From Humisphaera borealis (GTDB taxonomy: Bacteria > Planctomycetota > Phycisphaerae > Tepidisphaerales > Tepidisphaeraceae), in assembly GCF_015169395.1 (NCBI RefSeq), contig NZ_CP063458.1, forward strand, positions 1,116,001 to 1,180,000: a DNA stretch of 64,000 nt, read 5' to 3'. The notes beneath the pieces are model-generated. The model saw only the letters and a list, made by a program, of their open reading frames with translations. It had not been told where the DNA came from and did no database searches. Below, in pieces: positions 53,023 through 63,155 of the stretch. Numbering within the stretch: the first letter of the stretch is position 1; every line of letters starts with the position of its first letter. The position numbers and the translations under genes are program-made.

Positions 53023-55683
53023 CTACTTCTGGAAGACCTCATGCTTCGGATCACCGCGGGCAATCAGATACGCGAGCAGGTCGAAGATTTCTTCTTCCTT
53101 GAGGTAATCCACCAGCCCTTCGGGCATCAGCGACACCTTGGAGGTTTCCATGGACTTGACGTTGTTGCGGTCGACGGCGGTCTGCTGGTTGGGGTCGAAC
53201 AGGTCGGTGTTGACCATCACGCGGTCGCCGTTCAGGTTCACGATCCGCCCGATGACCTGGTCGCCGTCGAGGGTCTTGACGACCGTCGGGGCGAACTGGT
53301 CGGACACTTCCTTGCTGGGCTCGATGATCGAAACCAGGATGTCGCGCGGGCCGAAGCGGGAGGCGAGGGACGTCAGGTCGGGGCCGACCATGCCGCCTTC
53401 ATTTCCGAACCGGTGGCAGGCGAAGCACGCGACCGTGCCGAACATCTTGCGGCCCTGCTCGAAGTTGCGGCCCTTCATCGACTGCTCGGCCTTGCTGGCC
53501 AGATCTTCGACCTTCCACTCCTTGACCTTCGTCCGGCCCTGCAGCCCGGCCGACAGTGCCGCCAGCGGCGACATCACTTCCGGCTTCTTCTCCAGGATAT
53601 CCTTGAGCTGCGTCTTCTCGGCGTCGCTCAGGCTGGCGATGGCGTCGGTGCGGATCATCTGGATGAACGCGACGAAGCTCGCCCCGCCGCGGTAGTTGGC
53701 CGCCCGCAGCAGCCACTCGAACTGCTTGGTGCGAAGCTCAGGCGTCCAGCCGGCCTTGAGCATGCGGAGCGATCGGGCGTACTCAATCTGCTCTTCCTGC
53801 GTGGCGGCGGTCGCCAGCAGCGGAACGGCCTTGGCGGCCAGGCTCGGGTCCTGGAGGTACGACAGCGCCATGCACAAGTCGTAACTGACGGGGATCGTCT
53901 TGGCCGGGAAGTGCGGCGTAAGCTGCGCGATCGCGGCCAGCCGTTGCTCTTCCGTTGGCTTGCCCATGCGGACGAAACAGACGGCGTAGGTGCGGAGCAT
54001 CGCCAGCTTCTGCCACTCGGGGAGCTTGGCGAAGTCGATCTTCTTCAGCGCCGACAGGATCTCGGCCTGAAGCGCCTTGTCTTCGGGGGCGTCGGTCGGC
54101 TTGCGGTGGAAGGGATCGACGCTCGTGGCCCGGACCAACGCCAGCAGTGCCGGGATCTGTCGCTCGGGCTTCTGCTCGGCCAGTGCCTGCTTCTGCCACT
54201 GCTTGACCGGCAGGTGTTCCAGCACGGTGCGGGCGGCCGAGCGGATGGCACGGTCGTCGCTGCCGAGATGATTCCAGGCACCTTCCATCGCGCCGATCTG
54301 CTCGACCTCGGTCAGCTTCTTGCCGTGGAAGCTCTCAAGCTTGTGCCGCAGTTCGCGGGCGGCGACCTGTTCCGGCGTGCCGGGGTTATGGACGGCGGGC
54401 GCCGTGGACTCCGTGCCGGTGTAGGTCACGCGGTAAAGGCCCGACTGGGTCTTGCGGCCGCCGATTGCGAAGTAGAGCGCCCCGTCTTCCTTGCGGACGA
54501 CGCTGTCGGTCAGTGGCAATGGCGAGCCGCTGAGGAACTCTTCCTTCGTCGCGGTGTAGCTGCTGCCGTCGGGCTGCATGTGGATCGCGTACATCTTGCC
54601 CCAGCTCCAGTCGTTGATGAACAACGCGTCCTGGTACTTGGCGGGGAACTTTGCGTCGTAACCGAACGTGACACCCGTCGGCGAACCTGGCCCGATGTTG
54701 ATCACCGCGCCGAAGCTGTCTTCGTACCACTCTGGCCATTTACCGGCGCCGTTGCGCCAGCCGAACTCGGCGCCGCTGATGACGTGGTTGACGCGCGTCG
54801 GGCGGTACCAGGAGGTGTTGAAGTCGTACTCCATGTCGGCGTCGTAGGTGAACAGCTCGCCGTCCTTGTTGAACGCCGCGTCGTACTGGTTGCGGAAGCC
54901 AGTCGCGACAAGCTCCCAGGTTTTGCCATCAGGGGACATGCTGTAGATGTTGCCGCCGGGGGCGAGCTTGTCGCGCATGAAGCCGCGGCCGTCGGGCATG
55001 CGCGGCAGCAGGTGATCTTCTCCCCAGAGCATGGGCACGCGGCTGGAGTCGACCTTGGTCAGTTCGGACTTGTTACCGACGACGATGTAGATCGACTTGC
55101 CGTCGGGTGCGAGCACCGCGGCGTGGGGCGAGTGGTCGCCGCCGCCGGGGATGTTGCGAAGGAACTCGGCCTTGTCGAGGGTGTCGTCGCCGTTGGTATC
55201 GGTGACGCGATAGACGCCGCTCTTGCTCTGGTCGGTGTAGTTATTGACGACGACATAGAGGGCGTCGAACGCCCAGACCAGGCCGTTGGCCGCGCCGACC
55301 TGCGCCGGGATGGGCTCGATCTTCATGCCTTCGGTGGTACCCAGGGCCGGCGGTGTGACGCGATAGAGGGCGCCGTACTGGTCGCAGACGATCAGGCGGC
55401 CCTTGTGATCGGTGCACATCGCGACCCACGAGCCCTGCGTCTCGGCAGGCACGGTGTAGAGCAACTCGACCTTGAAGCCGGGCAGGGCGCGGATCTTGTC
55501 GGCCGGTGTGGCTTCGGCGGCGTTGTTGGTCTTGGGTTTGGGAGCCTCGGGAGCCTTCTTGGGGTTCGCCCTGGGCGCGGGCTTGGAGCCCGCCGGCTTG
55601 GGCTGCTGCTGGGCAAAGATCGCACCGCCCGCCAGCGCGACGGTGGAGGTTAGCACGAGAAGGGTTTTACGAATGGGTGTCAT
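53023..55683 (-). CDS. PVC-type haem-binding CxxCH protein, paralogue of the 3005-5620 protein
   Basis: 886 residues from ATG 55683 (MTPIRKTLLVLTSTVALAGG signal); an open frame to 55764 lacks a signal. A Pro/Lys/Ala-rich linker precedes the propeller (about 65-430: GSWVAMCTDHKGRLIVCDQY, ELFTYDADMEYDFNTSWYRP). Helical repeats follow at about 440-690, then a cytochrome c domain with CFACH at about 753-757 and GPDLTSLASRFGPRDI. Order and motifs match the plus-strand copy, but the proteins are clearly diverged and only this one has the long linker. Likely a periplasmic sugar or alcohol dehydrogenase-like electron donor; the substrate is unknown. Confidence 0.88.
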   Translation of the reverse strand: MTPIRKTLLVLTSTVALAGGAIFAQQQPKPAGSKPAPRANPKKAPEAPKPKTNNAAEATPADKIRALPGFKVELLYTVPAETQGSWVAMCTDHKGRLIVCDQYGALYRVTPPALGTTEGMKIEPIPAQVGAANGLVWAFDALYVVVNNYTDQSKSGVYRVTDTNGDDTLDKAEFLRNIPGGGDHSPHAAVLAPDGKSIYIVVGNKSELTKVDSSRVPMLWGEDHLLPRMPDGRGFMRDKLAPGGNIYSMSPDGKTWELVATGFRNQYDAAFNKDGELFTYDADMEYDFNTSWYRPTRVNHVISGAEFGWRNGAGKWPEWYEDSFGAVINIGPGSPTGVTFGYDAKFPAKYQDALFINDWSWGKMYAIHMQPDGSSYTATKEEFLSGSPLPLTDSVVRKEDGALYFAIGGRKTQSGLYRVTYTGTESTAPAVHNPGTPEQVAARELRHKLESFHGKKLTEVEQIGAMEGAWNHLGSDDRAIRSAARTVLEHLPVKQWQKQALAEQKPERQIPALLALVRATSVDPFHRKPTDAPEDKALQAEILSALKKIDFAKLPEWQKLAMLRTYAVCFVRMGKPTEEQRLAAIAQLTPHFPAKTIPVSYDLCMALSYLQDPSLAAKAVPLLATAATQEEQIEYARSLRMLKAGWTPELRTKQFEWLLRAANYRGGASFVAFIQMIRTDAIASLSDAEKTQLKDILEKKPEVMSPLAALSAGLQGRTKVKEWKVEDLASKAEQSMKGRNFEQGRKMFGTVACFACHRFGNEGGMVGPDLTSLASRFGPRDILVSIIEPSKEVSDQFAPTVVKTLDGDQVIGRIVNLNGDRVMVNTDLFDPNQQTAVDRNNVKSMETSKVSLMPEGLVDYLKEEEIFDLLAYLIARGDPKHEVFQK

Positions 55684-55784
55684 GGAGATCGGCCTCGTAA
55701 GTTTGATGGTCTGTAAGTGGCGGAGATCGCCCGCTGGAGGAATCCTGGACAGTGATCGATGCAACGCCGCTCGCGATACATCGC

Positions 55785-55810: not shown

Positions 55811-57268
55811 CTACTTGCGCTTGGGCTTTTCGGCGGCGTTACTCACCCACGGCCCGCCGTACTGGTCGCGCAACTCGGTGGTTCGCTTGCGCAGTGCGTC
55901 GGCGGTGGCGGCGAACGCGGGGTCGGCGATCAGGTTCTTCGTGCAATGGAAGTCGGCTTCGTGGTCGTAAAGTTCCTCGACCAGAGGCTTGGCTTGGAAC
56001 CACCGCACGTAGGTGAACCGCTCGTTTCTGACGCCCTCGCTCTTTGGAATTATGGCACCGGGACCATTGGCGTCCATCAGGTGTTCGTAGAAGAAGTCGT
56101 CGCGCCAGGGAACCTGAGCTTCCCCGGTAAGAAGCGGGAGAAGACTGCGGCCTTGGTAGTGCCTGGGCACGGCAATCCCGGCTCGGGCCAGCATGGTCGG
56201 AGCCAGGTCGAGATTCAATGCCATCTGGTCGATCACGGCACCATGGCGGTCCTTCAAGAGCGGGTCGGCGATGATCAGCGGGACGCGAATCGACTCTTCG
56301 TAGATGTACCACTTGTCGGCCAGCCCGCGGTCGCCGAGGAAGTAGCCGTTGTCGGCCGTGAAAACAATGACGGTGTTGTCGGCCTGCCCCTTGTCGGCGA
56401 CGGCCTTGCGGACGCGGCCGATGGCGCGGTCCACATCGGCAATCATGCGGAAATAGCCTCGGACCATTTCCTGGTACTTCGCCGGCTCATCGAACCGCCA
56501 TTTGAAGCGTTTGCGGCTCTCGCTGTTTTTGATGAAATCGGGCTGACTTTCGAAGAAGGACTCGGCCATCGTCGCCGGCGGCACGAACGTGAGATCCTCG
56601 TAGAGCCCGTCGCTCTCTTTCGCCCAGATGTACTGGCGGGGGTTGTTGTCCTCGGCGTGCGGGGAGTTGAAGCAGAGCGACAGGCACCAGGGCTTGGCGG
56701 GGTCGGAGCCTTCAATGAACTTGATCGCGTTTTCGGCCTCGATGTCCGTCAGATGGCGTTCGGTACCGTCCGGCTGCTTCTTCAGGTACGGGTGACCCAG
56801 GGGCGTGAAGACATCGTACATCGCCTTCTGGCCGGCATCGGCAACCGCGACGCCGAACTTGCCGACATGCCCCGTGCGGTACCCGGCGTCCTTCAGCAGT
56901 CGGGGATAGCTGGCGGCGGCGTGCTCGGCGGTGATGGGCTTGGTGCCGAAGGTGTAGCGATGCGTGCGTTCGTGAAGGCCCGTCAGAATCGTTGCCCGGC
57001 TGGCGGCGCAGATCGCCGTCGTGACGAACATGTTCCTGAACCGCACACCCTCGGCGGCAAGCGCGTCGATGTTCGGCGTTTGAATGCCGAACGCCTTGCT
57101 GTGTCCGACTGCGTCCCAGCGCTGGTCATCGGTGAGGATGAACAGGATGTTCGGGCGCCCAACGGGCTTTTCAATACGGGGCGACGCGGCGGTGTCCGCC
57201 GCGAGCACCAGCCGGCCGAAAGAGCAGACGACTACACAGGTCAGCAGGAAGCGATTCAGCATCGACAA
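55811..57268 (-). CDS. Exported type I sulfatase
   Basis: 485 residues with a signal peptide (LNRFLLTCVVVCSFGRLVLA); ATG 57262 is an equally likely start. Sulfatase signature: metal-binding DDQRWD (D47, D48), the formylglycine site CAASRATILTG with Cys87 (C-x-A-S-R), GYRTGHVGKFG with the catalytic His/Lys region, and TADNGYFLGDRGLADKWYIY. The enzyme removes sulfate from sulfated glycans in the periplasm after Cys87 oxidation by a formylglycine-generating enzyme, not in the window. Planctomycetes carry many such genes. It is upstream of, and co-oriented with, the PVC haem protein gene (127-bp gap). Confidence 0.93.
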   Translation of the reverse strand: MSMLNRFLLTCVVVCSFGRLVLAADTAASPRIEKPVGRPNILFILTDDQRWDAVGHSKAFGIQTPNIDALAAEGVRFRNMFVTTAICAASRATILTGLHERTHRYTFGTKPITAEHAAASYPRLLKDAGYRTGHVGKFGVAVADAGQKAMYDVFTPLGHPYLKKQPDGTERHLTDIEAENAIKFIEGSDPAKPWCLSLCFNSPHAEDNNPRQYIWAKESDGLYEDLTFVPPATMAESFFESQPDFIKNSESRKRFKWRFDEPAKYQEMVRGYFRMIADVDRAIGRVRKAVADKGQADNTVIVFTADNGYFLGDRGLADKWYIYEESIRVPLIIADPLLKDRHGAVIDQMALNLDLAPTMLARAGIAVPRHYQGRSLLPLLTGEAQVPWRDDFFYEHLMDANGPGAIIPKSEGVRNERFTYVRWFQAKPLVEELYDHEADFHCTKNLIADPAFAATADALRKRTTELRDQYGGPWVSNAAEKPKRK

Positions 57269-57550
57269 TCGACCCTCCGCGGTCGCTTGAGACGTTCTAG
57301 TTTCGTCCGGGGCTGGGGAAGAACGCCAGCATCATACCGGTGAACGCCGCAGGGAACAGCAGTATTGCGTTGGCGTCAAAGGATGTTCCGCAACTTTGAA
57401 ATCTGGCTGCTATCGGACCGCTGCCGCGGTGCCCATGCCGGGACGTCCTTCGGAGACAATCGTGTAAGACATTGCCCCCGGTTGTCGACTACCATCATGA
57501 CGGCGGTCGGTCGTCGAAGGACTTTCACTCGGCGTGCGACCCGAGCTCGC

Positions 57551-58126
57551 ATGATCGATTGGGACCGCATCGTCGAAGAGGATGGACCGGCCGTCTGGCG
57601 CATTTGCTGGCGGCTGCTCTGTAACCGCGCCGACGCCGAAGAGGCGTTCCAGGAGGCGTTTATCGCTGCGGTCGAGCTGTCGCGGCGGGAGACGCTCGCC
57701 ACCCCGCGGGCCATCCTCCAGCACCTGGCGACGGCACGGTCGATCGACAAGCTCCGTTCCCGCCAGCGGCGTCGCAAACGGCATGAGCCGGTCGACCACG
57801 AACGGCTGAACGAGGAAGCCTCGGCCGACGTAACGCCGCCGCAGAACGCCGAGGCCGGGGAACTGTCCGATGCGCTACTGAAGGCGCTGGCGACCCTTCC
57901 CGGGAAGCAGGCCGAGTGCTTCACGCTCCACGCGATCGAAGGCTGGGCCTACCAGGAGATCGCCGATCGCCTGGGTCTGAGCATCGATCATGTCGGCGTT
58001 CTGATTCACCGTGCCCGGGGAAAGTTGAAGAAGTCGCTGGCGCACTATGGTCACGACGGTCACAACAGTGCCGTTGAACCACCTGCGGCTGGCGCGACGT
58101 CAGGAAGCAGCCCATCTGGAAAGTGA
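57551..58126 (+). CDS. ECF-type RNA polymerase sigma factor
   Basis: 191 residues from ATG 57551 (MIDWDRIVEEDG); the frame is open to 57365, but the upstream part is Arg-rich and unlike the family. Region 2 at about 10-80 (RADAEEAFQEAFIAAVEL, ILQHLATARSIDKLRSR), region 4 at about 115-170 (LPGKQAECFTLHAIEGWAY, IDHVGVLIHRARGKLKKSL). A His/Ser/Pro-rich tail follows. It ends 49 nt before a membrane-anchored cupredoxin gene, its likely co-regulated partner. Confidence 0.9.
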   Translation: MIDWDRIVEEDGPAVWRICWRLLCNRADAEEAFQEAFIAAVELSRRETLATPRAILQHLATARSIDKLRSRQRRRKRHEPVDHERLNEEASADVTPPQNAEAGELSDALLKALATLPGKQAECFTLHAIEGWAYQEIADRLGLSIDHVGVLIHRARGKLKKSLAHYGHDGHNSAVEPPAAGATSGSSPSGK

Positions 58127-58175
58127 CCGTGCAGGATTGCCGGACCGGAACACCAAGAGTCAGCAGGTATTCGTC

Positions 58176-59201
58176 ATGAAGCCGCCCTTTGAAAGTTTTC
58201 GCGAAGACAACCTGGACCGCGCGGTCCGCGCGGTGATCGACGCGCCGGTTCCCCCGGGACCGTCTCCGATGTTGATGGAGCGCACTCGCGCCGCCATCCG
58301 ACGGGGAGGGAGCGGCGGATCGTGGGTTGTCCGAGGGTCGTGGCGGTGGGCCGCGATCGTGCTGATCGCCGCTTCGGCGGCGACCGTGGTGGCGCTGAAG
58401 GGGCCGGCAGTCGTCGAGCGTATCGCCGGCAACGACAAGCCCGCGCCTGTAGCTCCGGGTTCGGGCGTAGCGGCGCCGGCGCATCTGGCGGTCGTGGGCT
58501 TTGTAAAGCTGGAAGGGGCCGCCCCGCTGCCGCATCTGCTTCCGCAGGCGGGCGGCCCTCACTGCGGACACAACCATGCCCCGCCGCGCGACGAGTCCAT
58601 CGTGGTCGCCGCTAACGGCGGATTGGCCAATGTGATCGTATCAGTGTCGAGCGGGCTTCCCGAGGGACGGAGCTACCAGCGGCCCGCGGCCCCCGCCGTG
58701 CTCGACCAACGCGATTGCAAGTACACGCCTCGGATGGTGGTCATGCAAGTGGGACAAGAACTGGTCGCCAAGAACAGCGACCCGTTCTTCCACAATGTGC
58801 ACACGAACTCGATGCGCAACAAGCCAGTGAACGTCGCCCAGCCGCAGCCCGATCCCGTGGGCCTGAAGCTCAAGTCCGTCGTCACCGCTGAGACCTTCAA
58901 GGTGACGTGCGATCTGCACCCCTGGATGATTGCGTGGGTGGCGGCATTCGATCACCCGTTCTACGGTGTAACGGGGGATGACGGTGCCTTTACGATGCCT
59001 GCCCTGCCGCCGGGCCAGTACACCCTCAAGGCGTGGCACGAACGGCTTGGGGCCATCGAGCAGCAGGTGGTCGTCGGTACCGATGGAAAGCTGCCGCCGG
59101 TGCAGCTGAAGTTTGGGGCAGAGCGACTGGCGGCTGCGTTGGCGGATCGGAACGTAACGGTTGACGCAGGGCACCTGGCCAAACCCGCATGCTGCAAATG
59201 A
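58176..59201 (+). CDS. Membrane-anchored cupredoxin protein, possible transmembrane partner of the sigma factor
   Basis: 341 residues from ATG 58176. A cytoplasmic N-terminus of about 55 residues (FESFREDNLDRAVRAVIDAP) precedes one membrane helix at about 57-78 (WAAIVLIAASAATVVALKG). The outer part has GPHCGHNHAPP near 128, then a plastocyanin-like domain with copper-ligand candidates in FFHNVHTNS (near 205) and TCDLHPWM (near 245-251), and a carboxypeptidase-regulatory-like beta domain (FTMPALPPGQYTLKAWHERL). The end is ACCK. Topology and position after the sigma gene suggest an anti-sigma or sensor role driven by copper or redox state. That is inference; the protein could instead be a plain electron carrier. 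Confidence 0.75.
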   Translation: MKPPFESFREDNLDRAVRAVIDAPVPPGPSPMLMERTRAAIRRGGSGGSWVVRGSWRWAAIVLIAASAATVVALKGPAVVERIAGNDKPAPVAPGSGVAAPAHLAVVGFVKLEGAAPLPHLLPQAGGPHCGHNHAPPRDESIVVAANGGLANVIVSVSSGLPEGRSYQRPAAPAVLDQRDCKYTPRMVVMQVGQELVAKNSDPFFHNVHTNSMRNKPVNVAQPQPDPVGLKLKSVVTAETFKVTCDLHPWMIAWVAAFDHPFYGVTGDDGAFTMPALPPGQYTLKAWHERLGAIEQQVVVGTDGKLPPVQLKFGAERLAAALADRNVTVDAGHLAKPACCK

Positions 59202-59240: not shown

Positions 59241-59271
59241 AAAAAAGAAGCGGCCTTCCGATAGGCCGCTT
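59241..59271 (-). terminator. Intrinsic terminator for the ParA-like operon
   Basis: Minus strand: stem AAGCGGCCT / AGGCCGCTT with a 6-nt loop, followed by CTTTTTTT. It lies about 46 nt after the 59318 gene end. The plus-strand side has no T tract. Confidence 0.8.
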
Positions 59272-59317: not shown

Positions 59318-61159
59318 CTATGCCGCTTCGAGTAGCAGCCCGGTCCGACCGGCCCACTTGAGCGTTCGATAGGCGCGGACCATGACGTGATCGGCCTGCA
59401 TCATCGGGCGGAGAAGGTCGCCGGTGATGTCGGCCTGATCGACGAGCAGGATGATCGCCGGAGTTTTGTTGGTGTCGATCGCGAACTGTGGCATTGCCAT
59501 CGCAATCAGCGAGCGGTTCTCCAGCATCCACTGAAACGCCTTGCCGATGGCGCGCAGCTCGGACAGCCCGCGGCTGGCGGCGGCGACGATGGCCAGCCCG
59601 CGATCACGGGTGACGGCGAGCCGACCGTTCGGGCAGGAGGGAACGCCGATCGGGCATTCGACCACGCCAAACTCCGCGCGACGCAGGACCGCCGACAGGA
59701 TGCCGTTGATGTCGTCGGCGTCGCCGGGCAGATCGATGACATCGTCGCTGCTGGAGGTTCGGGCCGGGGCAGAATCGCCGGCGATCGAGAGTCGGGGCAT
59801 GGTGAAGTCCGTGGTTTCGGCCGGCTTTTGCATTGATGGGGCTGGGGCGGGCGTCGGGCGACTCTCACTCACGCCGGACGTCATCACGACCGGCGATTCG
59901 GCGACATCCACCCGGCGGATCGAAGGTTCGATGCTTCGGGGCACGGCAGACTGCGGCGTGCCGACCGGCTCGGCGGTGAGGGCACTGTCCATCGCGGGGG
60001 CGGCAGTGACAGCCGGCTGAGATTTCTCGCCGGAGTCATGCGCGACGGTACGTGTGTCGGGCACATGAGTATCAGCTTGTCCGCGGCGCGGCCGTGAAAG
60101 CATCTCGCTTACCACTGCCCAGTGCGGGGCGGCAGCCAGGTGAGCCTTGTCGCGGGTGACCCGGCAGTTCATGAGCGGGTGCTCGGCGACGCCGGCGGCG
60201 TAGCGGACCGGTGTTTCGGGGTTGATCTCCCAACCGAGGAACTGACGACAGACCCCGGCGAGTTTCTGAAGGACGCGATTGGCCTCGGCGTCGCCGGCGG
60301 CATCGAGCGTGGTCAGACCCAATCGGGTGGATTTGCCGGTTTCGTCGACCCGGGCATCGACAACGCCCTTGAGCGTGCGGTACGCCGAGACGACGCCGTC
60401 ATGGTCGCAGGTGGTGAGCACTGTCCAGGATTCGCAGTCCCGCAGGATCGCCTTGGCTTCGGGCGTTCGGAGGTTCGGAAGCAGCAACAGCCAGTGATCG
60501 ACATCGACATTCAGTTCGGCGATCGCCTCGGCGATCTCGTGGGCCTCACACATGCCGGTGGTCACGTTCTGCCGCGACTCGACTTCGGCGCCAGGTTCGA
60601 TCGCGGGGTCGATGAGATAGAGCCGGAACTCGGAAACGTCCAAGTCAATGAGCCCGACACGATGACCGGATGCGGCCAGGTGACGTGCGTAATCGCGGGC
60701 GCGTTCCAACTGCCGTGCACCGAGGTGCGATGCCAGCAGAGCGGTGACGGGGGCTACGGCGTCGATATCCGAATCCGCCAGTCCGGTTGCCGAAAGCAGT
60801 TGCGCGTCGTCGGTGTTCGCGACTCGGGCCGGTGAAGCGCCGGCTTCAGCCGAGGCATCGCGACGTTGGCCGGTTGCGAAAACCTGCGCGTACTCTTCCG
60901 GCGTCAGGTCGACGCTGGGAATGCCGCCTTCGTCAGACATCGCCGCCGGCTGCGAGGTCCCGTAGGTTGGGATGGATCGGTGTGCTGACTCGGCAACGGG
61001 CGCGGACGTCGGTGCGCCGGGTGTGGCCGGAAGCGAGTGTGATCCTGGCGGCTTGCGCACCGGCCGCGGCATTCCCTGCCCGGCGAGACTGCGGACATTC
61101 GACAGGAACAGGTGACTGATGTCGTTGACGGAGTGCTGCTGTTCGTCTTCCGTGGGCAT
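59318..61159 (-). CDS. ParA/MinD-like protein without a Walker A motif
   Basis: 613 residues from ATG 61159; ATG 61186 is an alternative. Low-complexity Pro/Ser/Ala-rich N-terminus (about 1-120). A Rossmann-like middle (about 140-350) follows ParA/MinD order: ALLASHLGARQLERARDYAR where the P-loop strand-helix should be, then HRVGLIDLDVSEFRLYLIDP, HWLLLLPNLRTPEAKAILRD and VLTTCDHDGVVSAYRTLKGV. No GKGGxGKT is present, so ATP hydrolysis is unlikely. A disordered linker leads to a second folded domain at about 490-613 (GRLAVTRDRGLAIVAAASRG). It follows a true ParA gene by 154 bp on the same strand and may be its regulatory partner. Confidence 0.6.
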   Translation of the reverse strand: MPTEDEQQHSVNDISHLFLSNVRSLAGQGMPRPVRKPPGSHSLPATPGAPTSAPVAESAHRSIPTYGTSQPAAMSDEGGIPSVDLTPEEYAQVFATGQRRDASAEAGASPARVANTDDAQLLSATGLADSDIDAVAPVTALLASHLGARQLERARDYARHLAASGHRVGLIDLDVSEFRLYLIDPAIEPGAEVESRQNVTTGMCEAHEIAEAIAELNVDVDHWLLLLPNLRTPEAKAILRDCESWTVLTTCDHDGVVSAYRTLKGVVDARVDETGKSTRLGLTTLDAAGDAEANRVLQKLAGVCRQFLGWEINPETPVRYAAGVAEHPLMNCRVTRDKAHLAAAPHWAVVSEMLSRPRRGQADTHVPDTRTVAHDSGEKSQPAVTAAPAMDSALTAEPVGTPQSAVPRSIEPSIRRVDVAESPVVMTSGVSESRPTPAPAPSMQKPAETTDFTMPRLSIAGDSAPARTSSSDDVIDLPGDADDINGILSAVLRRAEFGVVECPIGVPSCPNGRLAVTRDRGLAIVAAASRGLSELRAIGKAFQWMLENRSLIAMAMPQFAIDTNKTPAIILLVDQADITGDLLRPMMQADHVMVRAYRTLKWAGRTGLLLEAA

Positions 61160-61203
61160 GTTGATGCGTCCGGTAGGAGCGGGCAAGAGGATCGACGGTG
61201 GTG

Positions 61204-61313: not shown

Positions 61314-62741
61314 TTATTCCACTTCGACGACGTTGTTCAGTTCGCCGAACTGGTTGGTTTCGACGTACTGATTGAACGGGTCGGTCTGCCACTTGCCATC
61401 GACGACAAAGCGATATCGGTAGCGGCCGCGGGAAAGCGGGAGCTTCATCGACCAGCCGACGCCCGGCGTGCGGACCATCGGGGTGCTCATCGGGAGCCAA
61501 TTGTTGAAGTCGCCGGCGATCAGGACCTGGCGTGCGCTGTCAAACCGGGCGGAGAACACGACCCCGTCGTCGAGCTGCTTGACGCCGTAGAAATCAGCGA
61601 GCTTCTGCTCGGTGGAACGAACAGGTTGCTGCATGGCCGCCGGGGCGGTCGCGGTGGTGGCAACGCGTTGAATTCCACCCGCGGTCGGGGCGGACATCGT
61701 CGCGGCCGAAAGCGAGGAGAGCGAAGCGGTAGCGGACATCGAGGCCGCATGACCCGGCGCAGCCGCCAGGGCTGGTGCCATCGCCGGCGCGGCGGTCGTG
61801 GATTGCATCGTGCCGACATTCCCGCCGCCAGCGGAAGGCGTCTGTTGGATGGTCGGCACCGCGTTGCGACCGAACTGGTAGTTGGCCAGCTGCGCCAGTG
61901 CGCGGGCCCGCTGCACCAGTTCCTGCGGACGGCTCATCTTGTCGTGAGCGACTTCCGGCTCGGCCGGCCGGGCACCCATCAGCTCCCGGGCGAGGTTGAC
62001 GAAATCCTTGTAGCCGCGGGAGCCGGGGTCGTACTCGGTGATCGGTTGACCGAAGCTGGCGGCTTCCTTCAGCTTGGTGTTGAAGTTGACCGTGCTGGTC
62101 ATCAGGTAGTCTTTGAACTTGGCGCGCAGCTCGCTCAGCACTTCGCGGGCGAGCTTGGTCCGGGTGTCGTAAAGCGTGGGAAGCACACGAATGACGATGT
62201 CTTTGCCGGCCCGCTCGCGGAGCATCACCAGCGTTTCCATCATCTTGGTCAGGCCGTGCAGGCTGAAGTAGCCGGTCTCGACCGGAACGATTGCTTCATC
62301 GCATGCCTTCAGCGCGTTGAAGGTGATCAGTCCGACGCTGGGCGGGCAGTCGATGATGCACCACTTGTAGTTGTCTTTGACGGCCGACAGTGCGTTGGTC
62401 AGCCGATCTTCGCGACCGGACCGACCCGCGAAAACCTGCTCGAAGGCGGCCAGCCGGATGTTGCTGGGTGCCAGGTCGAAATCGGTGGCGATCTGCCAGA
62501 CGATGTCGGAGATCTTGGGGACGCGGCCGTCGCGGGTGTCCGCCGGCTCGAGCATCGCGTCGTAGATGGTTCGTTCGATCTGCTCTTCCGGCACAGCCAG
62601 CCCGGTGCCGCAATGGCCCTGTGGGTCCATGTCAACCAGCAGCGTTTTCTGGCCGAGTCGGGCCAGGCACGCGGACAGGTTGATGGCGGAGGTGGTCTTT
62701 CCGCATCCGCCCTTTTGGTTGATGATCGCGACCGTGCGCAT
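61314..62741 (-). CDS. ParA-family ATPase fused to a CBM48/AMPK-type glycogen-binding domain
   Basis: 475 residues from ATG 62741, with GGAAGG 8-9 nt upstream; an open frame to 62825 is not protein-like. Deviant Walker A KGGCGKTTS at 10-18, switch motifs LLVDMDPQGHCGTGLA and WCIIDCPPSVGLITFNALKA, and PVETGYFSLHGLTKMMETL mark a complete ParA ATPase (about 1-260). A Thr/Ala-rich linker (about 310-370) follows. The C-terminal about 95 residues are an AMPK1-CBM/isoamylase-N-like domain: VVFSARFDSARQVLIAGDFN, NWLPMS, SRGRYRYRFVVDGKWQTDP. Such domains bind glycogen or starch. No parB or parS is visible next to it. Role inferred: positioning of glycogen or another glucan body, or linking storage to partitioning. 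Confidence 0.85.
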   Translation of the reverse strand: MRTVAIINQKGGCGKTTSAINLSACLARLGQKTLLVDMDPQGHCGTGLAVPEEQIERTIYDAMLEPADTRDGRVPKISDIVWQIATDFDLAPSNIRLAAFEQVFAGRSGREDRLTNALSAVKDNYKWCIIDCPPSVGLITFNALKACDEAIVPVETGYFSLHGLTKMMETLVMLRERAGKDIVIRVLPTLYDTRTKLAREVLSELRAKFKDYLMTSTVNFNTKLKEAASFGQPITEYDPGSRGYKDFVNLARELMGARPAEPEVAHDKMSRPQELVQRARALAQLANYQFGRNAVPTIQQTPSAGGGNVGTMQSTTAAPAMAPALAAAPGHAASMSATASLSSLSAATMSAPTAGGIQRVATTATAPAAMQQPVRSTEQKLADFYGVKQLDDGVVFSARFDSARQVLIAGDFNNWLPMSTPMVRTPGVGWSMKLPLSRGRYRYRFVVDGKWQTDPFNQYVETNQFGELNNVVEVE

Positions 62742-63155
62742 TGTCGTGCCTTCCGTGGAACCCGATGGGACCGCCCGCCGTTCCGTCGGCGTTTGGTGCG
62801 AGGCGACTGCCCGTAGCCCCGGCAACGCTGTGGACTTATCGTGAAATCCGGCAGCGTCTGCTGAAAGATCGGAGTGTGGCGGGGGTTTCCTTTAGCCTTA
62901 TCGGACAGACCTCATTGAAAAGCTGTTTTTCAGTGCTGCTAGCCAGCCGGAGCAGGATGTTCTGTGTTTTGGGTTGCTTAATCAGGCAGATGGTCCGCCG
63001 ACCACCGTAATCGTGAACCTGCGATCCACGCGAGTCAGACTGTGGTGGACAGGGACTAGGCCGAAAACTGACAGCAATTTCGCCGATCGTCGTCAGTTGT
63101 AGGTGGGTACAATCGCAATCGCCTGGTAGCCCTTACATTGATCGTTTTTTCCTGC

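Follow-up and report, generated by a model that had tools for sequence, protein, structure and literature searches.

The locus raises the question of what a membrane-bound blue-copper protein does directly behind the gene of an ECF sigma factor. The window, i.e., the whole stretch of DNA analyzed here, covers 64 kb (1116001-1180000) of G000, a single-contig genome of 7.19 Mb; feature positions below are those of the window. The sigma factor (57551-58126, plus strand, 191 aa) is composed of sigma2 and sigma4 and lacks sigma3. PF04542, PF08281 and PF04545 (Sigma70_r2, r4_2) score above the Pfam cut-offs, and TIGR02937, with a cut-off of 42.9, scores 87.8 bits; by its domains, the protein is an ECF (group 4) sigma-70 factor. 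The tail after residue 165 contains no cysteine, and a CorE-like Cys-rich extension is therefore absent. The second gene of the operon (58176-59201, plus strand, 341 aa) encodes the partner, a proposed cupredoxin-type anti-sigma factor. It starts 50 bp past the sigma stop codon, and in both orthologues its start codon overlaps the sigma stop. The two genes that the first-pass annotation had described, an ECF sigma gene and an adjoining transmembrane cupredoxin gene, are both present.

The structure of the partner was predicted from a 74-sequence alignment. The model has helices at residues 6-21 and 31-43 and a transmembrane helix at about 57-74; behind a linker of low confidence, residues 106-314 are modeled with confidence as a beta domain. 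The first 43 residues (58176-58304, plus strand) form the N-terminal module, a proposed anti-sigma domain, with a PVPPGPSP loop between the two predicted helices, which are modeled with moderate confidence. The flank of the predicted transmembrane helix (taken as residues 58-74; 58347-58397, plus strand) is rich in arginine on the N-terminal side, from which a cytoplasmic N-terminus is deduced. The predicted layout is, hence, a cytoplasmic N-terminal module, a single transmembrane helix and an outer sensor domain. A last beta domain, carboxypeptidase-regulatory-like (residues 261-314; 58956-59117, plus strand), is modeled with mostly high pLDDT, and its match to PF13620 (E = 5.5e-5) lies below the cut-off.

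The outer part had been called plastocyanin-like from the motifs FFHNVH and TCDLHPWM, and the modeled fold agrees. Residues 106-260 (58491-58955, plus strand) form a predicted periplasmic cupredoxin domain of the plastocyanin/amicyanin type. In a Foldseek search of the PDB, the best matches of the model are amicyanins, and VIA-align superimposes it on plastocyanin and amicyanin with Z-scores of 10.6-12.3 over 83-97 residues, mainly 171-258, at an rmsd of mostly 1.6-2.6. The model of the outer domain is thus that of a cupredoxin. The predicted type-1 set of ligands, His-Cys-His-Met, is complete: H206 lies in HNVH (58791-58802, plus strand) and is invariant in the 74 homologues, and C245, H248 and M251 lie in the CxxHxxM loop CDLHPWM (58908-58928, plus strand), which we take to have the length of the amicyanin loop. 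The invariance of CD[IL]HPWM in the same homologues is partly built in, because this was one of the two search patterns. A further His/Cys cluster, GPHCGHNH, had been put forward as an additional feature of the outer domain. Its cysteine, C130, is near-invariant among the 74 homologues and C181 is invariant, but the other residues of the cluster are not conserved. As both cysteines are kept in the stand-alone cupredoxins too, they are a feature of the whole family, and the idea of a special sensor cluster was dropped.

The sigma gene with its full partner occurs in three genomes of two genera: G000, and G002 and G023 (JAQGHH010000275.1, Phycisphaerales RYN_428) from the neighboring genus. The sigma orthologues of the latter two share 55-57% identity with the window sigma factor. 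Because the pair is found in three genomes, the arrangement goes beyond chance. In G001, from the window's own genus, the pair was not detected in an assembly that is about 65% complete; several of the compared genomes are fragmented assemblies. The remaining cupredoxin relatives are stand-alone, secreted proteins without the N-terminal module and, within the family, are mostly found in cytochrome oxidase clusters. Close homologues located away from sigma genes are solely of this stand-alone kind.

The sigma factor belongs to a group that extends over the class: close homologues (E ≤ 1e-20) are present in 55 of 397 sampled genomes. At 43 of the 47 loci inspected, a co-directional gene directly 3' of the sigma gene (from overlapping to 50 bp apart) encodes a protein with the N-terminal module and a transmembrane helix, and these 43 partners have the motif D.L.RAV.ALR..P.P.GP......T...L in common. 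Their outer domains differ. Most are LolA/DUF2092-like, and others are coiled coil, FecR, VIT or TPR, assigned by Pfam for some partners and by eye for the rest. Examples of loci with exchanged outer domains are L069, L181, L187, L214 and L322. One apparent sigma-partner fusion, L190, has neither the module nor a transmembrane helix and was set aside.

Inspecting only the neighbors of sigma genes introduces a bias, which was removed by searching for the module alone across 26 genomes of the family. Each of the nine matches either adjoins an ECF sigma gene or shares a chain with the sigma factor. Seven are strong, one next to each of the group's seven known sigma genes in these genomes; as the query alignment already contained several of them, what is new is the lack of matches elsewhere and the two weak ones. 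One weak match is the gene just 3' of another ECF sigma gene in G024 (L323). The other is a single-chain protein in G041 (L322, G041:C207, ORF 1038-2757), a natural chain of ECF sigma factor, N-terminal module, transmembrane helix and outer domain, and offers a natural test case for an intramolecular sigma/anti-sigma model.

In Pfam, the module matches no recognised family and no known anti-sigma domain. A profile search of the PDB sequences gave nothing meaningful, CnrY included, and a kinship with CnrY is still conceivable. Because it tracks ECF sigma genes, once within the same chain, and is combined with varied outer domains, the module looks like an anti-sigma domain whose sensors can be swapped. 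The partners of the group look like a general family of anti-sigma factors with interchangeable outer domains, to which no Pfam model extends.

These results bear on another explanation, in which the partner, as an electron-transfer cupredoxin anchored in the membrane or as a structural protein, is merely co-transcribed with the sigma gene and does not regulate the sigma factor. The stand-alone relatives, secreted proteins of oxidase clusters and not regulators, would suit this explanation, as would the lack of a recognised anti-sigma domain in the partner. On the contrary, the module and transmembrane helix are common to sigma-linked proteins whose outer domains have nothing to do with electron transfer, the stand-alone cupredoxins do not carry the module, and the module keeps to ECF sigma genes to the point of sharing a chain with one. 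Mere co-transcription is therefore considered very unlikely, and the partner is treated below as a putative anti-sigma factor.

Cupredoxins have also been joined to sigma factors directly. Single-chain proteins consisting of an ECF sigma factor, a transmembrane helix and a cupredoxin were found in four other planctomycete genomes: L050 (G016), L141 (JAEUHX010000022.1), L221 (G482) and L223 (G398). Their sigma factors differ from that of the window, and their cupredoxins belong to the same family. In a tree of 116 cupredoxin domains, inferred with a quick tree search, the sigma-linked ones are scattered. Its well-supported branches require five changes or more, which implies that cupredoxins were recruited to sigma systems at least five times independently. 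The G016 fusion has its sister in a cupredoxin that G016 also encodes as a stand-alone protein. The closest relative of the G482 fusion (L221, 1378-3766) is the lipoprotein cupredoxin gene directly 3' of it, and by their sequences this adjoining pair is a recent duplication. The cupredoxin domain of the putative G023 anti-sigma protein groups in the clade of the family's oxidase cupredoxins; the position of the window's own domain is not firm. In the same tree, the cupredoxin of L120 (CAMBFS010000017.1), a metagenome-assembled genome labelled Klebsiella pneumoniae, groups with sequences of Myxococcota, and the label is probably wrong. G016 encodes, next to its single-chain sigma-cupredoxin fusion (C4, L050), two pairs of a sigma factor and a LolA-type partner (C385, L069; C87, L071), and allows a comparison of sensors within one host.

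The genes that such a system would control can be predicted from its promoter. Most sigma genes of the group in the class are preceded by the motif TGTAA(T/G)A-N15/16-CGACTA, which takes its strict form at 23 of the 47 sigma loci; outside the family, with variable spacing, it is present at 31 of 40 loci, a few of them weak. In the window, it lies at 57463-57491 on the plus strand, with TGTAAGA (57463-57469) separated by a 16-bp spacer from CGACTA (57486-57491). This predicted autoregulatory ECF promoter is the best matrix match in the whole 64-kb window, and the 7.19-Mb genome contains just one other exact match to the pattern. With a conserved promoter before its own operon, the sigma factor bears the sequence signature of autoregulation. 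Genome-wide counts of the pattern are not above those of a reversed-pattern control (13 vs. 16 in G000), so any claim about a regulon depends on position and recurrence. The other one-mismatch matches in G000 are mostly intragenic or absent from G002 and G023 and were not retained.

Position and recurrence point to a cytochrome oxidase. For this scoring, the promoter matrix was trained only on loci outside the family. A promoter match precedes a stand-alone cupredoxin gene in G000, G002 and G023, and in G001, which has two pattern matches genome-wide, the sole exact one also lies upstream of a cupredoxin-cox operon. In front of the cupredoxin-cox operons of all four genomes from the two genera, G000, G001, G002 and G023, the matrix scores 13.3, 18.2, 20.8 and 19.4, respectively; for 18 other cupredoxin genes, the score does not exceed 4.5. 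The promoter in G000 is the weakest (13.3), with one mismatch and a distance of about 280 bp to the start codon. The chance that a 500-bp region of this kind contains a match with no or one mismatch is about 1e-4 to 4e-4 per genome, a figure that serves as a guide and not as a test, since the link between promoter and cox genes was noticed after the scan; the further genomes are consistent with the first. In G000, the operon has the order cupredoxin, coxB, coxA (COX1, E = 1.2e-141), ctaA, ctaB, second cupredoxin, coxC.

The second target shared among the genomes encodes a small exported protein in which a CxxC motif is followed, after 44 residues, by RAPP, 2-3 residues before the C-terminus. 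The CxxC and its 44-residue spacing are kept in all three genomes, with RAPP in two and TGPP in G000. Such a layout, CxxC and a C-terminal RAPP, is a hallmark of the DUF2946/CruR copper-responsive leaders (PMC9426467, PMC9973294). Against PF11162, the G000 copy reaches 14.6 bits at a cut-off of 23.7, and the copies of G002 and G023 are unmatched. The promoters of this CruR-like gene score 20.6-22.6 in G000, G002 and G023. Nine other genomes also have the gene, and there the score is at most 6.2 in eight and 13.6 in one. CopC and CopD genes follow the CruR-like gene in G002 only, and in G023 a YHS-domain gene lies 3' of it. The predicted regulon, as read from these sequences, is thus composed of the system's own operon, a Cu-dependent oxidase and a copper unit of the CruR/DUF2946 type.

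This composition also bears on the role of the copper site. The cupredoxin fold might serve as an interaction scaffold, for example for oxidase assembly or the state of the envelope, without a functional copper site. Other partners of the group do bear LolA/DUF2092-like or coiled-coil outer domains, and in the L223 fusion the ligand loop is altered to CDAGHLWM. The copper ligands are, however, intact in the window partner and its two orthologues, and the predicted regulon contains oxidase and copper genes, which makes a mere scaffold improbable. A copper-binding sensor is preferred.

The gene pairing, shared module, fold, ligands, promoter and predicted regulon come directly out of the comparison; from them, we infer sigma and copper binding, the release of the sigma factor and the sign of the response. 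The locus is likely to encode an ECF/anti-sigma system with a cupredoxin sensor that controls a Cu-dependent terminal oxidase together with copper handling. The suggestion, made from the window alone, of a cupredoxin as the sensory part of an anti-sigma system gains support from the sigma-linked module with other sensors, the recurrent fusions and the predicted oxidase and copper regulon. In the proposed mechanism, the two-helix N-terminal module of the partner would hold the sigma factor at the membrane, as CnrY holds CnrH, and the periplasmic blue-copper domain would sense either the supply of copper or the redox poise of the oxidase branch. A change in the state of the sensor would release the sigma factor through a conformational change or proteolysis. 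Once freed, it would transcribe its own operon, the cupredoxin-coxBA-ctaAB-coxC operon and the CruR/DUF2946-type copper unit.

As for the signal, a variant compatible with this mechanism has the sensor read redox state or electron flow: with copper bound, switching between Cu(I) and Cu(II) via a respiratory donor would gate the sigma factor, and an over-reduced chain would lead to more oxidase. The complete type-1 site suits this variant, as do the oxidase genes in the predicted regulon and the kinship of the domain with the cupredoxin at the head of the oxidase operon, presumably an electron carrier. The third predicted target, a CruR-type leader with CopC and CopD behind it in one genome, speaks instead for copper supply. 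A redox signal is a serious possibility, to which we give somewhat less than an even chance, and the CruR-like and CopC/CopD genes tip the balance slightly toward copper occupancy. Tentatively, an electron-transfer blue-copper protein of the oxidase branch may have been made the sensor of sigma systems repeatedly and independently, with the Cu(I)/Cu(II) state of its type-1 site outside the membrane setting the transcription of the oxidase that is its relative's partner and of the genes for that oxidase's copper supply.

Among the metal-linked ECF systems, a close parallel is that for Co/Ni. Its metal sensor, CnrX, is a separate protein of another fold. Here, unlike in CnrYX, the sensor would be a blue-copper domain on the proposed anti-sigma chain itself. 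In CnrH-CnrY-CnrX of Cupriavidus metallidurans, the two-helix class II anti-sigma factor CnrY embraces CnrH, and a periplasmic metal signal frees the sigma factor (PMC4598750, PMC7406223). Class II domains have about 45 residues; in the module of the window partner, two helices are predicted with moderate confidence, a layout that resembles that of CnrY. CorE of Myxococcus xanthus, a copper-linked ECF factor, works without an anti-sigma factor and detects copper in the cytoplasm through a C-terminal extension rich in cysteine (PMC3107203, PMC8999054), whereas the window sigma factor lacks such an extension and the copper domain would lie outside the membrane. In ECF48, ECF52, ECF53 and IutY, a membrane or sensor extension is fused to the ECF sigma factor (PMC8999054), and L050, L141, L221 and L223 resemble them as single chains of sigma factor, transmembrane helix and outer domain; the described ones, however, carry no cupredoxin (PMC8999054). 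The likeness to CruR/CutF (DUF2946) concerns the third predicted target and lies outside the sigma/partner system itself. Amicyanin and plastocyanin share the predicted fold and the HNVH and CxxHxxM ligand motifs with the window partner; the known ones are soluble electron carriers, whereas the window cupredoxin is on a proposed anti-sigma chain. No system joining a cupredoxin or plastocyanin to an anti-sigma factor was found described in the open-licence papers searched. The parts are of known kinds, and metal-linked ECF systems such as CnrYX and CorE are known; new is the cupredoxin on a (proposed) anti-sigma chain, tied to the oxidase of its own relative.

In all but a few model species, little is understood of how bacteria adjust the synthesis of terminal oxidases to the supply of copper and the flow of electrons. 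The circuit proposed here is small and testable; its putative sensor is related to a product of the predicted target, and a copper site that can be followed by spectroscopy would be part of a transcriptional switch. Moreover, the class-wide combination of one module, exchangeable outer domains and one promoter may allow regulons and signals to be predicted for many uncharacterised planctomycete sigma factors.

Upstream of the sigma operon, the minus strand encodes a large dehydrogenase-like protein of the PVC type, which has a CxxCH haem motif (53023-55764), and a sulfatase (55811-57268). Downstream, a hairpin at about 59250-59269 separates the sigma operon from a convergent gene on the minus strand (59318-61186), another protein with a CpsD-like look. 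Behind it, also on the minus strand, a ParA/MinD-like ATPase (61314-62825) is oddly fused, judging by eye only, to a C-terminus (VLIAGDFNNWLPMSTPM...) that resembles a glycogen-binding domain of the AMPK CBM48 type.
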